The position numbers and the translations under genes are program-made. Positions 53,291 to 58,574 of a stretch of DNA of 64,000 bases are shown piece by piece. Where the stretch lies: IMG/VR virus record IMGVR_UViG_3300042350_002797, positions 186,001 to 250,000 of that record; one strand, written 5' to 3'. Each line of letters opens with the position of its first letter. Within the stretch, counting starts at the first letter, position 1. Source of the stretch: a virus. Below the pieces are notes generated by a model. That model searched no databases. It was not told the DNA's origin and saw only the letters and a program-made list of their open reading frames with translations.

Positions 53291-54589
53291 ATGTTAAGAA
53301 TTATCGATGTTCTTCAAGTTATTGTAAAATATAATCTTGAGGAACATCTATTTCAAAATTCAAATTTCAAATTACTTTCAATCGCAAAACTTTCTTTTAA
53401 GAATCTATTCGGCATAACAACTCCGCACGGAACTTTTGAATATCGATTACGTTGTGCGCTAGAGGAACTAGGACCAGTTTTTATCAAATTTGGACAAATG
53501 TTATCATCTAGACCTGATTTAATTCCTGCAAGTATTGTTAAAGAATTAAAATTTCTTAGAGAGTCAGTAAAGCCTTTTTCTGAACATGATGTAGAAAAAA
53601 TAATAGAATTAGAATTAAAAAACTCTACAGAAAACATATTTAAAAAGTTTGATAAATCTCCTATTGCTGCGGGTAGTGTAGCGCAAGTTCATTATGCTGA
53701 ACTACACACTGGTGAGTTAGTTGCGGTTAAAATATTAAGGCCTAAAATAGAATGTATTATTAAAAAAGACATAAAGTTATTTAGAAATATTTTACAATTA
53801 ATTTTTTTGTATAATAAAAATTTAAAAAAAATTAAGATAGAAAAAATTTTAGATGAGTTATCAAATAGTTTAATGTTAGAACTAGATTTATTGATAGAAT
53901 CTGATCATATGAAAAAGTTTGCATCTAATATGAAACATGTTTCATATGTATGTGTTCCTAAAGTATATGACAAATATAGTACAAAAACTATTTTAGTGAT
54001 GGAAAGAATGTTTGGAATTCCTATTGATCAAAAACAACAACTTATTGATCAAGGTGTTGATGTTAGGATAGTAGTTCAACAAGGTGTCGAAGTAATGATG
54101 TTACAACTATTCCGAGACGGATTTTTTCATGCAGATCAACATCCCGGAAACTTATGGATTAAACCTGATGGATCTCGAATTTATTTAGATTTTGGAATAG
54201 TTGGGTCTATTACAGAGGCAGATAGAAAATCATTATTGCAAATTCTTTTCTTTTTATATTCTAAAAATAATAAAAAAACGATTGAAAAATTAATAGATGC
54301 CGGATGGTTAAACAAAAATCAAAACTTAGACCAATTAGAAGTCGATTTAATTGATATAGCACAGCTATTTGTTAATCGAAAACAAAAAGATTTTTCAATT
54401 GGTAATGTATTAAATAAATTTTTCAATTTAGTAGAAAATTATCAAGGCAATGTGCCTTATCAATTTACATTATTGGTAAAAACAATTTTAGTAACTGAAG
54501 GTATAGTAAAGCAACTAACACCTGATCTAAATATTCAAAGTATAGCAGAGCCGGTTCTTTTAAAGTTTTTTACTAAATCTTTTACTTAA
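53291..54589 (+). CDS. UbiB/ABC1-family atypical kinase
   Basis: The 432-residue protein has the family N-terminal KxGQ motif (FIKFGQMLSSRPDLIP), the Ala-rich nucleotide loop AAGSVAQVH, VAVKILRP with the ATP-binding Lys, FFHADQHPGNLWI and YLDFGIVG. UbiB/COQ8 proteins act in ubiquinone synthesis and lipid metabolism as ATPases or kinases. It lacks the C-terminal transmembrane pair of E. coli UbiB (546 residues), so membrane contact may be through the conserved KxGQ helix. It is located next to the acyl cluster. A role in handling lipid-like intermediates is inferred. Confidence 0.85.
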   Translation: MLRIIDVLQVIVKYNLEEHLFQNSNFKLLSIAKLSFKNLFGITTPHGTFEYRLRCALEELGPVFIKFGQMLSSRPDLIPASIVKELKFLRESVKPFSEHDVEKIIELELKNSTENIFKKFDKSPIAAGSVAQVHYAELHTGELVAVKILRPKIECIIKKDIKLFRNILQLIFLYNKNLKKIKIEKILDELSNSLMLELDLLIESDHMKKFASNMKHVSYVCVPKVYDKYSTKTILVMERMFGIPIDQKQQLIDQGVDVRIVVQQGVEVMMLQLFRDGFFHADQHPGNLWIKPDGSRIYLDFGIVGSITEADRKSLLQILFFLYSKNNKKTIEKLIDAGWLNKNQNLDQLEVDLIDIAQLFVNRKQKDFSIGNVLNKFFNLVENYQGNVPYQFTLLVKTILVTEGIVKQLTPDLNIQSIAEPVLLKFFTKSFT

Positions 54590-55339
54590 GAGAAATCCTA
54601 TATAACCCTCTATATCTATTTCCCACCAACGATGTTGAAGTATCAATCGTCCAGGATGAGCATGATGATTATTGTGCCATCCGAACCCCATACCTAACCA
54701 ACCTAACCATAAATTATTCGTAGTTGCATCGTCTGTAGAAAAATTTCTATAACCTGATCTATGACACCAATAGTTAACTGCACCTAGTCTAAAAAAATCC
54801 ACACAGTAGGCCAAACAGTACATCATGAAGTACACCGGATCAATCAAAACAAGTGTAAAACAAAATGTAAAAATTATTTTATAATGATGTCTATGAAAGA
54901 AAAGATAAAACGGGTCACGCAACATCTGTACAGCTAATTTTTTAGCATACTTGTCTTGTAAATATTCTTGTTCGTTATTTCCCTGAGGAAATGTCCAAGC
55001 ATAGAATACGTAGAACCAACTGTTATACATTGGACTATGAGGATCGTTAACTTTATCTGCTCTAAGATGATGAGCTTTATGCTGTATGACCCAAAATGTC
55101 ACTGGACCAATAGCGCCTAAAGTAGATAAAAATCCTAATAGCCATTTTACAGGTTTATAGGTTTCGAACTGACCATGAGCAAAATATCTATGTGCTGCTA
55201 CACCATTGCCTACTACACCAATGACAAACCAAATTACTAAGAAACTGATCCAATGATTAGGTAGTTCCCATATAGCAATTAGTCCCCATATATGAAAAGG
55301 TAGAAATACTACCCAAAAGTTAAATCCATATTTTTTCAT
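54560..55339 (-). CDS. Membrane fatty-acid desaturase 3
   Basis: The 259-residue protein has His boxes HRYFAH, HKAHH and HNNHH with four to six hydrophobic segments. It resembles acyl-CoA Delta-9 type desaturases but differs in the second box, which lacks the usual Arg. It overlaps the upstream desaturase 4 (ATGA), so the two are translated together. Its 3' end overlaps the convergent UbiB-like gene by 30 bases. Confidence 0.92.
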   Translation of the reverse strand: MKKYGFNFWVVFLPFHIWGLIAIWELPNHWISFLVIWFVIGVVGNGVAAHRYFAHGQFETYKPVKWLLGFLSTLGAIGPVTFWVIQHKAHHLRADKVNDPHSPMYNSWFYVFYAWTFPQGNNEQEYLQDKYAKKLAVQMLRDPFYLFFHRHHYKIIFTFCFTLVLIDPVYFMMYCLAYCVDFFRLGAVNYWCHRSGYRNFSTDDATTNNLWLGWLGMGFGWHNNHHAHPGRLILQHRWWEIDIEGYIGFLLSKRFSKKL

Positions 55340-56094
55340 TGTTTAATCAATCTAATAATGTAAGCAGGTATATCAAACTCCCACCAACGTTCTTGATTGT
55401 TCCAAGCATATGGTTTAGCGTGATGTGTATTATGCCACCCTTCTCCTAATGTGATAAGATTGGCAATCCAACTATTACGGCTTTGATCTTTGACGTCCGG
55501 ATAAGGTCTATAACCATGTCTATGTGCTATAACAATAATAGCACTAGTGCTGTGTAAGCAAAGACAAGCAGGTATAGCAAACACATATATTATCATTAAT
55601 GGATCATAAGCAAATAAAATTGATATCCAAATTAGAATTACCAGCAAATATTTTTTGTGTAGTTCTCGTTGAAAGACATTTTCACGCATATCACGAACTA
55701 GTTTTAAATCTAATCTAGGCATATTCCATATACCGAACCATGCTCGAAAATTTCCCAGTATATAAGGACTATGAGGATCTCCAGGACGTTCTGCTGATCT
55801 ATGATGCTGTCTATGTACAGCTACCCAAGCTAATGGACTACCTACCACAGTAATAACACCTATAAGACTAAACAGTTGCTCCCAGAATCGATGTGTTTTA
55901 AAACTACGATGACTGAGTAGTCTATGGTAACCAATGTTAATACCAAGTACACCTATGATCCAATAGGTTACTAAGGACACAAATAATAAACTATATTCAG
56001 CAATGTAGATAGCATATATTATACCTATTGTAGCAATTACATGATTAATTACTTGTAGTGTTCTTACAGTTTGATTATGTGTCATTTTTATCAT
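55336..56094 (-). CDS. Membrane fatty-acid desaturase 4
   Basis: The 252-residue protein has HRLLSH, HRQHH and HNTHH boxes, and hydrophobic stretches typical of acyl-lipid desaturases. The start could be the ATG at 56094 or 56085 (MTHNQTV); both lie in the end of the upstream gene, and no strong ribosome-binding site decides. Adjacent desaturase 3 overlaps its stop. Two desaturases in tandem could make different positions or chain lengths. Confidence 0.92.
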   Translation of the reverse strand: MIKMTHNQTVRTLQVINHVIATIGIIYAIYIAEYSLLFVSLVTYWIIGVLGINIGYHRLLSHRSFKTHRFWEQLFSLIGVITVVGSPLAWVAVHRQHHRSAERPGDPHSPYILGNFRAWFGIWNMPRLDLKLVRDMRENVFQRELHKKYLLVILIWISILFAYDPLMIIYVFAIPACLCLHSTSAIIVIAHRHGYRPYPDVKDQSRNSWIANLITLGEGWHNTHHAKPYAWNNQERWWEFDIPAYIIRLIKQ

Positions 56095-56644
56095 CTACAA
56101 CTAGCCATCCTAATTTAAGTAAGTCATCTCGAATTTCTTCAGTGACAACGCCTTCAGACACAAACTTAGTACGAGCAGCCCATTCGCAGAAAGTCTCTTC
56201 ATCTTTATCCCAACTGCCTGCAAGCCCTCCCATGCCACTACAGTACCAGTCAATGTAGTCACCTTCTTGACGCATGTCAGCAATGATGCCTCCAGCATAG
56301 CGCCAACTAGCACTCCATGTCTCTTCTTTTAATACTGGCCACAAATCACGTTTTTGAAATTCATTATTACACATTGCTGCATATAAATTTTGAGCGTAAT
56401 GTTCTTTATTGCGAACTTTTTCCAAAATCCAATCGCAAGTACGCAGATCATATTCTAAGTTATTTTTTTGCCACTCAGGATTTGTTTCATTTTCCTCGGC
56501 TCGAATTCCCCAGCTATTATAAAACTCTAGCATAGTCTTGACATGTTCATCATTTTCAGGAGTGCGACCTTTTTCAGCCCATCTTTCAAGGGACTTAGAT
56601 TTTTGAAAACTATAACGATCAGGACTTTTACTTGGCTTGTTCAT
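56075..56644 (-). CDS. Phage protein of unknown function
   Basis: The 189-residue, Trp- and Glu-rich, mostly helical protein has DYIDWYCSGMGGLAGSW as a distinctive segment. It reads as a folded cytosolic protein with no motif I can place. It overlaps desaturase 4 by up to 20 bases, so the three genes 56075-54560 form one operon. Upstream is the noncoding stretch with the possible structured RNA. Confidence 0.62.
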   Translation of the reverse strand: MNKPSKSPDRYSFQKSKSLERWAEKGRTPENDEHVKTMLEFYNSWGIRAEENETNPEWQKNNLEYDLRTCDWILEKVRNKEHYAQNLYAAMCNNEFQKRDLWPVLKEETWSASWRYAGGIIADMRQEGDYIDWYCSGMGGLAGSWDKDEETFCEWAARTKFVSEGVVTEEIRDDLLKLGWLVVDDKNDT

Positions 56645-56673
56645 ATCTGTACTTATCGAAATTAAAAAGGAAT

Positions 56674-56906
56674 GTGGGCATACAAGGCTGTTTTAGCGAC
56701 CTAAAGCTTTGTACTATATTCACTAGCTAGGTGATCTCAACAACTTTTCGGACTAATTGAAAAACTATCTGGACCCTCAGGAGTACCTGATATTCGCACG
56801 GGGATCAAACAACTGTACTACCGATTTCAACTAAGCCTATTCAGGTAACAGCATCCGCTACAATGATTATGCCCACAACTATATTTTACATTCAGTAGAA
56901 TGTAAA
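56674..56906 (+). ncRNA. Candidate structured noncoding RNA
   Basis: Between 56645 and 56910 there is no ORF of useful size. GTGGGCA (56674-56680) can pair with TGCCCAC (56870-56876) as a closing stem. Inside, TACAAGGCT (56681-56689) pairs with AGCTTTGTA (56705-56713), TCAGG with CCTGA around AGTA (56777-56790), and CTGT..TACC (56813-56822) with GGTA-ACAG (56844-56851). A further 9-bp hairpin (TTTACATTC/GAATGTAAA, AGTA loop) lies at 56885-56906. Two G-U pairs work only on the plus strand, which favours that strand. I found no match to tmRNA, RNase P or a known riboswitch. Confidence 0.45.
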
Positions 56907-56910
56907 GTCA

Positions 56911-56934
56911 AAAAAATAGGCACCGAAGTGCCTA
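56911..56934 (-). terminator. Intrinsic terminator of the phosphoesterase gene
   Basis: On the minus strand TAGGCAC and GTGCCTA enclose TTCG and are followed by TTTTTTT, directly after the stop at 56935. This is a classical UUCG-loop terminator. Confidence 0.85.
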
Positions 56935-57534
56935 TTACATAGTTGGACCGTTGCCGTTTTTAAAACCAACTGTGCCACCTTCTGCTTCGATACGTTTGAT
57001 TACGTCTTCGAATAATATAGGCGTGTAGTCAGTTTGTTCTACACAAACGCAATGATAACGAGGATCGATTTCGTCACTGTACAGAACTTCACCTGTTTTA
57101 GCATTTATGCCACGTGCTTTTTTAACACGACCTGCATGTAAGTGTCCGTGTATGTTTACACCAAAACGTCCTAAACTTGCTTCGTGTACAGGAATATGAC
57201 TCAGTATCATTCCATTCATAACGTGGTAAGCACGAAGTTCTCGAAAATATTCGTTATATTCTGTATCACGAAAGATGTCGTGATTGCCTCGGATTAACAC
57301 TTTATCTCCGTTTAATCGAGACAATGTAGATAACGCTTTACGGTTAATAACCACATCACCTAAATGATAAACTTTATCGTTTGGGCGAACACGGTCGTTC
57401 CAACGGCGGATCATTTCTTCGTCCATTTCGCTAGGATCGTCCCAAGGACGAAGTTTAGTTCCGTCGTCGCGTAAGAATCGGCACACACCAGCATGACCAA
57501 AGTGCGTGTCGCTAACTAAAAATACTGCTGGCAT
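56935..57534 (-). CDS. Calcineurin-like metallophosphoesterase 2
   Basis: The 199-residue protein has SDTHFGHAG (Asp, His), LGDVV, RGNHDIF and HGHLHAGR, the blocks of the calcineurin-like phosphoesterases; the small MPE type is often seen in phages. It differs from the protein at 41512 in size and sequence. Substrate unknown. A sigma-70 promoter lies 26 bases upstream, AGGAGG precedes the ATG and a strong terminator follows, so it is an isolated transcription unit. Confidence 0.87.
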   Translation of the reverse strand: MPAVFLVSDTHFGHAGVCRFLRDDGTKLRPWDDPSEMDEEMIRRWNDRVRPNDKVYHLGDVVINRKALSTLSRLNGDKVLIRGNHDIFRDTEYNEYFRELRAYHVMNGMILSHIPVHEASLGRFGVNIHGHLHAGRVKKARGINAKTGEVLYSDEIDPRYHCVCVEQTDYTPILFEDVIKRIEAEGGTVGFKNGNGPTM

Positions 57535-58367: not shown

Positions 58368-58377
58368 ATGTGTTCTT

Positions 58378-58567
58378 GTTAGGCTACTAATCCTCATTAG
58401 CCCCTAACTGAGTTGTTACCCTGTCCCCTGACGTTCCTTATGGCTTGTGCCAGCTAAACCTACGATTTTTCTTGCACCCATGTAAGCGGGTTCTGAGGCG
58501 TCATCGTATGAGCCCTGGTATTTTGGTGACACCAACCACCCCCTTTAATAACGCAGAAGGGACTGCG
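58378..58567 (+). ncRNA. Possible structured RNA between tRNA-Gly and tRNA-Thr
   Basis: The stretch holds several plus-strand hairpins: GTTAGG/CCTAAC with inner CTAAT/ATTAG (58378-58408), TGGC/GCCA (58441-58452), CTTGCA/TGTAAG with a G-U pair (58471-58486), and CGCAG/CTGCG (58552-58567). T4's tRNA cluster encodes two stable RNAs of unknown role, so this may be comparable. A minus-strand ORF listed next overlaps it, and both readings cannot be certain. Confidence 0.3.
58416..58532 (-). CDS. Possible 38-residue peptide
   Basis: A GTG at 58532, 6-7 bases after AAAGGGGG, opens a 38-residue ORF (SPKYQGSYDDASEPAYMGAR..., ending in KERQGTG) on the same strand as the flanking tRNAs. The sequence composition is protein-like, with few rare combinations. 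No homolog is recognised. It overlaps the hairpin-rich stretch, so it could be fortuitous. Confidence 0.3.
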   Translation of the reverse strand: MSPKYQGSYDDASEPAYMGARKIVGLAGTSHKERQGTG

Positions 58568-58574
58568 AGGTTCT

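Follow-up and report, generated by a model that had tools for sequence, protein, structure and literature searches.

An orphan structured RNA element, probably encoded on the minus strand, near the tRNA array of a tailed jumbo phage

What is encoded in the gap between a metallophosphoesterase gene and a 189-aa open reading frame (ORF) at positions 56645-56934 of this viral DNA, and on which strand? The window, by which we mean the whole 64,000-nucleotide stretch that was analysed, covers bases 186001-250000 of a virus record totalling 364,554 bases (364.6 kb). Its source is a tailed jumbo phage, as indicated by the tail fibre, virion and DNA ligase families among its genes. From 54560 to the end of the window, the genes and tRNAs flanking the gap all lie on the minus strand, bar one doubtful ORF. 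Two fatty-acid desaturase genes come after the 189-aa ORF, and an array of tRNAs, every one of them on the minus strand, runs from 58208 onward, 1.3 kb from the element described here. Host-like metabolic genes are found at 53291-56094 of the window, namely an ABC1/UbiB-type kinase and two fatty-acid desaturases.

A first-pass annotation had proposed a structured RNA of about 200 nt at this site, read from the plus strand. In our analysis the gap contains a real, selected and structured RNA element, most likely a folded non-coding RNA, which we call W. W is an orphan structured RNA element and is probably read from the minus strand instead. The features needed for the argument are these, in minus-strand order:

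56935-57534, minus: metallophosphoesterase gene
56915..56936, minus: intrinsic terminator of the metallophosphoesterase gene, directly upstream of the W promoter; also present in L004
56883..56911, minus: sigma-70-type promoter TTGACT-N17-TAAAAT, with the -35 at 56911-56906 and the -10 at 56888-56883
56885..56906, minus: inverted repeat TTTACATTC-TACT-GAATGTAAA over the promoter spacer; imperfect in L004
56674..56876, minus: W, structured RNA element of 203 nt, with predicted +1 at 56876 and predicted body end at 56674
56868..56876, minus: 5' strand of closing stem P1, GUGGGCAUA; invariant
56845..56861, minus: hairpin A, GUAGCGG-AUR-CUGUUAC, 7 bp, with two G-U pairs that exist only on the minus strand
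56756..56831, minus: arm B, four stacked helices with the end UCRGG-UNCU-CCYGA; local z -2.2
56792..56798, minus: UGCGAAU in the internal loop of arm B, T-loop-like by sequence only; kept in L004
56720..56734, minus: hairpin C, a 4-bp covarying stem with the loop palindrome UAGCUA
56674..56682, minus: 3' strand of P1, UAUGCCCAC; invariant
56075-56644, minus: 189-aa ORF of no known family, a possible cis target, starting 29 nt after the P1 3' strand

Conservation and consensus folding of the gap

W was found only in this phage and in one diverged homologue, another IMG/VR contig (L004); a further sequence, L003, is an identical copy. Identity between the phage and L004 is 84% across the gap. 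Within W, 166 of 203 columns are identical, compared with 161 of 275 fourfold-degenerate sites in four flanking genes of the same phage pair. W therefore changes more slowly than these sites (82% versus 59% identity, Fisher p=6e-8) and is under purifying selection, although it is non-coding. Conservation spans all 203 nt. No open frame of useful length lies within the element; a 32-codon plus-strand frame at its start is open in both phages and was judged to be too short, and to differ too much between them, for a gene.

The single-sequence fold of W is mildly better than shuffles (z -1.96 on the plus strand, -1.59 on the minus strand). The consensus fold of the two sequences is considerably stronger, with z of -4.3 for plus and -3.7 for minus and none of 600 column shuffles as good on either strand. 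When P1 is left out the values become -3.2 for plus and -1.6 for minus, and in these models the strand is not settled by structure alone. Covariation across the homologous gap, which had been put forward as a check of the original proposal, did yield compensatory changes: three double changes in the minus model, whose score is reached by 60 of 500 shuffles, and four in the plus model, reached by 40 of 500. As there is only one diverged homologue and shuffles reach these scores often, we regard the three to four double changes as suggestive only. The proposal of a structured RNA of about 200 nt thus finds support in selection, in the consensus fold and in a handful of compensatory changes, but the proposed strand does not.

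Further copies of W were sought widely. Related phages that have the 189-aa ORF, the phosphoesterase or the desaturases do not have W; both W-bearing phages carry the ORF, which also occurs elsewhere without W. Scans of viral contigs with five patterns of sequence or stem, and scans of bacterial and archaeal genomes, supported only the two known W sequences; the other matches were unsupported by nhmmer and by covariance model R1, the latter run on part of the loci from the last two scans. Covariance models of the plus fold (R1) and minus fold (R2) found nothing further in about 35 related records, three of which measure 347-353 kb. Two R2 matches at 13.9 bits, which mostly overlap a short open frame located between tRNA genes, were discarded. 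Comparison of W with phages and plasmids by blastn returned only short chance matches. The rarity of W may be due in part to sampling.

Promoter, strand and predicted fold

Reading along the minus strand, one passes from the phosphoesterase terminator straight to TTGACT-N17-TAAAAT, then through six bases, and then to the first G of P1, such that the predicted +1 coincides with the first base of the closing stem. In L004 both hexamers and their spacing are the same and the spacer sequence is changed. Equally good promoter matches at that offset occur at 0.27% of window positions. Consistent with the use of such promoters, the phage contains 20 perfect TTGACA-N17-TATAAT sites and one of the reversed pattern, and several perfect sigma-70-type sites stand upstream of genes within the window. 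On the plus strand of W we found no comparable promoter, the best match being 8/12 (p 0.13). Furthermore, relative L022 has TTGACT-N16-TATAAT at the same place, with a tRNA gene behind it on that strand. Since promoter, neighbouring-gene direction and the arrangement in L022 all point the same way, it is likely that W is transcribed from the minus strand, contrary to the first-pass annotation.

The inverted repeat over the promoter spacer has no other copy in the record at up to three mismatches. Read on the plus strand, it is the hairpin TTTACATTC-AGTA-GAATGTAAA (56885-56906), one of two that had been described as sharing an AGTA loop. Both sequences exist in the window, but as a shared RNA feature the AGTA loops were not upheld: the first most likely lies outside the RNA, because it falls within the minus-strand promoter spacer, and the loop of the second, CAGG-AGTA-CCTG, is AGCA in L004. 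About half of the structural features originally named are unsupported. The 8-bp internal helix ACAAGGCT/AGCTTTGT keeps only 3 of its 8 pairs in L004. The closing stem, by contrast, is present, and with 9 bp (GTGGGCATA/TATGCCCAC, 56674-56682 with 56868-56876) it is invariant in L004.

On the modelled minus-strand structure, P1 encloses hairpin A, arm B and hairpin C. Hairpin A has a local z of -2.3 on the minus strand and 0 on the plus strand. The helices of arm B (GUUGRAA/UUUCAAY; GUUUG with CAGAU or CAAGU; CCC/GGG) carry one double change together with four one-sided changes that keep pairing via G-U on the minus strand. Taken alone, each of these two parts favours the minus strand, and the G-U pairs first noted on plus do not mark out that strand, as the minus strand has both the two G-U pairs of hairpin A and four substitutions that preserve pairing through G-U there only. 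In hairpin C, two of the four pairs show double changes and the palindrome UAGCUA is unchanged. An alternative long-range helix, GCUGU/ACAGC, covaries too and excludes part of hairpin A, so alternative conformations of W are possible.

A second promoter-like match lies inside W on the minus strand, at 56713-56740, and overlaps hairpin C. It reads TTGAGA-N16-TATAGT here and TTGATG-N16-TATAGT in L004, and could serve the 189-aa ORF as a promoter.

Independent RNA or leader

We would put at about even the chances that W is an independently promoted, stable phage non-coding RNA of the minus strand that acts in trans. This reading is favoured because W has a private promoter, a closed fold that begins at the predicted +1, and a position occupied in a relative by a tRNA gene. 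Host sigma-70 RNA polymerase would transcribe W from its own promoter behind the metallophosphoesterase terminator, starting at the first base of the 9-bp closing stem, and the transcript would fold into a closed multi-branch structure of hairpin A, arm B and hairpin C. Its body would end at the P1 3' strand, at 56674, probably through processing, since no intrinsic terminator follows. The product may then act in trans, as a stable RNA produced at the same time as the tRNAs of the phage. Candidate contact sites are the self-complementary loop UAGCUA and the T-loop-like UGCGAAU, for which any function is speculative.

The lack of a minus-strand terminator between W and the 189-aa ORF fits equally well with W being a cis-acting 5' leader, of the riboswitch or translation-control type, for an operon of the 189-aa ORF and the two desaturases. 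We consider this rather unlikely on balance, yet it is a serious rival, as the ORF lies on the same strand a short distance downstream with no terminator in between, and W and the ORF are both missing in relative L080. There the phosphoesterase and its terminator are followed directly by the desaturases, which suggests a joint gain or loss of W and the ORF. In L004 about 24 nt immediately before the ORF start are unchanged, and no obvious Shine-Dalgarno sequence is seen. Several observations nonetheless weigh against a leader: in other phages the ORF homologues are preceded by tRNA genes or other genes and not by W, the desaturases occur without W, the W fold does not clearly hide the ORF start region, and there is no match to known riboswitches. 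More generally, the slot behind the phosphoesterase terminator holds different genes in different relatives.

That W is instead the plus-strand RNA of the earlier proposal, running from 56674 into a terminator hairpin near 56920-56940, appears improbable. The consensus fold scores better on plus, both whole and without P1, the plus model has four double changes, and the conserved 24-nt block stands just upstream of P1 on that strand. This block, however, is not repeated elsewhere in the window, and its position ahead of the 189-aa ORF would account for it just as well. In L004 the plus-strand form of the AGTA hairpin at 56885-56906 contains a C-A mismatch, the plus-strand promoter match is poor and the neighbouring genes are on the minus strand. 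It is more improbable still that the inverted repeats are mainly DNA-level signals, such as operators at one or two promoters, with no functional RNA fold: one repeat does span the promoter spacer, and the second, weaker promoter-like match, which recurs in L004, has hairpin C in its own spacer, but conservation covers the full element, and neither promoter spacer includes P1, hairpin A or arm B.

Catalogued RNAs and further families in the tRNA arrays

The absence of a known RNA class, as first noted for this gap, is confirmed by comparison with Rfam. Only tRNAs in the window reached the gathering threshold of Rfam 15, and no meaningful match was obtained over 56400-57100 at E up to 10. Neither ARAGORN nor the Rfam models recognised W as a tRNA or tmRNA, and the tmRNA model (RF00023) matched the whole record only at a tRNA-Leu, below the cut-off. 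No Rfam match to 6S RNA was found for W, and its predicted fold is branched, whereas 6S RNA is a rod with one central bubble.

W does resemble riboswitches and structured 5' leaders in having a closing P1 stem and a multi-branch fold upstream of a same-strand ORF; unlike riboswitches, it has no match among the Rfam riboswitch models and no consistent link to one gene family. A precedent is provided by the T4 rnaC and rnaD genes (species 1 and 2 RNA), annotated as small, stable, structured RNAs at the tRNA gene cluster of a large tailed phage. We found no sequence or model match between W and T4 RNA C or RNA D, and W differs from both in being longer, in having its own promoter and in lying outside the tRNA array. 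RNA C also has a tRNA-type T arm (CCGGGTTCGAATCCCGG), which W lacks. For such structured phage RNAs near tRNA clusters, including T4 RNA C and D, GOLLD and ROOL, there is to our knowledge no agreed function. GOLLD and ROOL, which are precedents too, are ornate, phage-encoded RNAs of unknown function that often lie near tRNA islands and form kissing loops (PMC12286853). A search of the whole record with the GOLLD covariance model (RF02032), at E up to 10, gave no match, and ROOL was not among the Rfam matches for the W region at the same limit. Many GOLLD RNAs exceed 800 nt, in contrast to the 203 nt of W. W is thus a new addition to a known kind, the structured RNAs near phage tRNA clusters, and matches no catalogued family. 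Being compact, with predicted ends and a clear candidate promoter, this orphan is suited to direct tests in a laboratory host.

The gap had been described as the only long non-tRNA gap in the window; a second one, between two tRNA genes, holds another structured RNA. This RNA, family X, and two further elements are located as follows:

58368-58574 of the window, minus: family X RNA, 207 nt, Rfam-blank, between tRNA-Thr and tRNA-Gly
L413:2702-3178, and also L020, L022, L061, L084, L089, L060, L008, L012 and L030: elements Z and Y, in tRNA arrays

Like W, family X is an Rfam-blank RNA of about 205 nt near tRNA genes, in the same phage and on the same strand; unlike W, it has homologues in the tRNA arrays of about ten related phages. 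In an alignment of 10 sequences, double changes affect 21 of the 34 predicted pairs, and the number of double-change cells (50) compares with 15.4 in shuffles, none of 500 of which was as high. The structure was derived from the same alignment, a circumstance that biases the sliding control, although the shuffle result is large. No match was found between family X and Rfam, or between a family X member and deposited phage genomes. Being more widely shared and strongly covarying, family X is better resolved by comparative methods than W.

In several phages, family X runs straight into a conserved, Rfam-blank element, Z, of which we have seven distinct sequences with covarying hairpins, often directly after X. 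Element Y, also Rfam-blank, occurs in the tRNA array of three phages, in 3 sequences 87-89% identical. No homology was found when W was compared with families X, Y and Z; W has no sequence match to X and misses model R3 even with filters off. Tentatively, and with a chance that we would place below even, these related jumbo phages may encode at least four unrelated, uncatalogued families of structured RNA (W, plus X, Y and Z from the tRNA arrays), produced in the manner of stable RNAs along with phage tRNAs. Among these W would be the narrowest in distribution, acting in trans and possibly forming a dimer via its palindromic loop.

A diverged second copy of family X lies near the record end (record 364061-364263, L416:7562-7764; E 1e-8), in a 400-nt non-coding stretch among small early-type genes. 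A nine-base string, GCGAATATC, is common to W and this second RNA region, and was judged to be due to chance. The surrounding segment (L416:6100-8055, record 362600-364554) contains strong, nearly identical promoters in series, each with a small ORF behind it, and several of these promoters have an inverted repeat around the -10 box (GTGTATGTGTGCTATAATGTACACATACAC).
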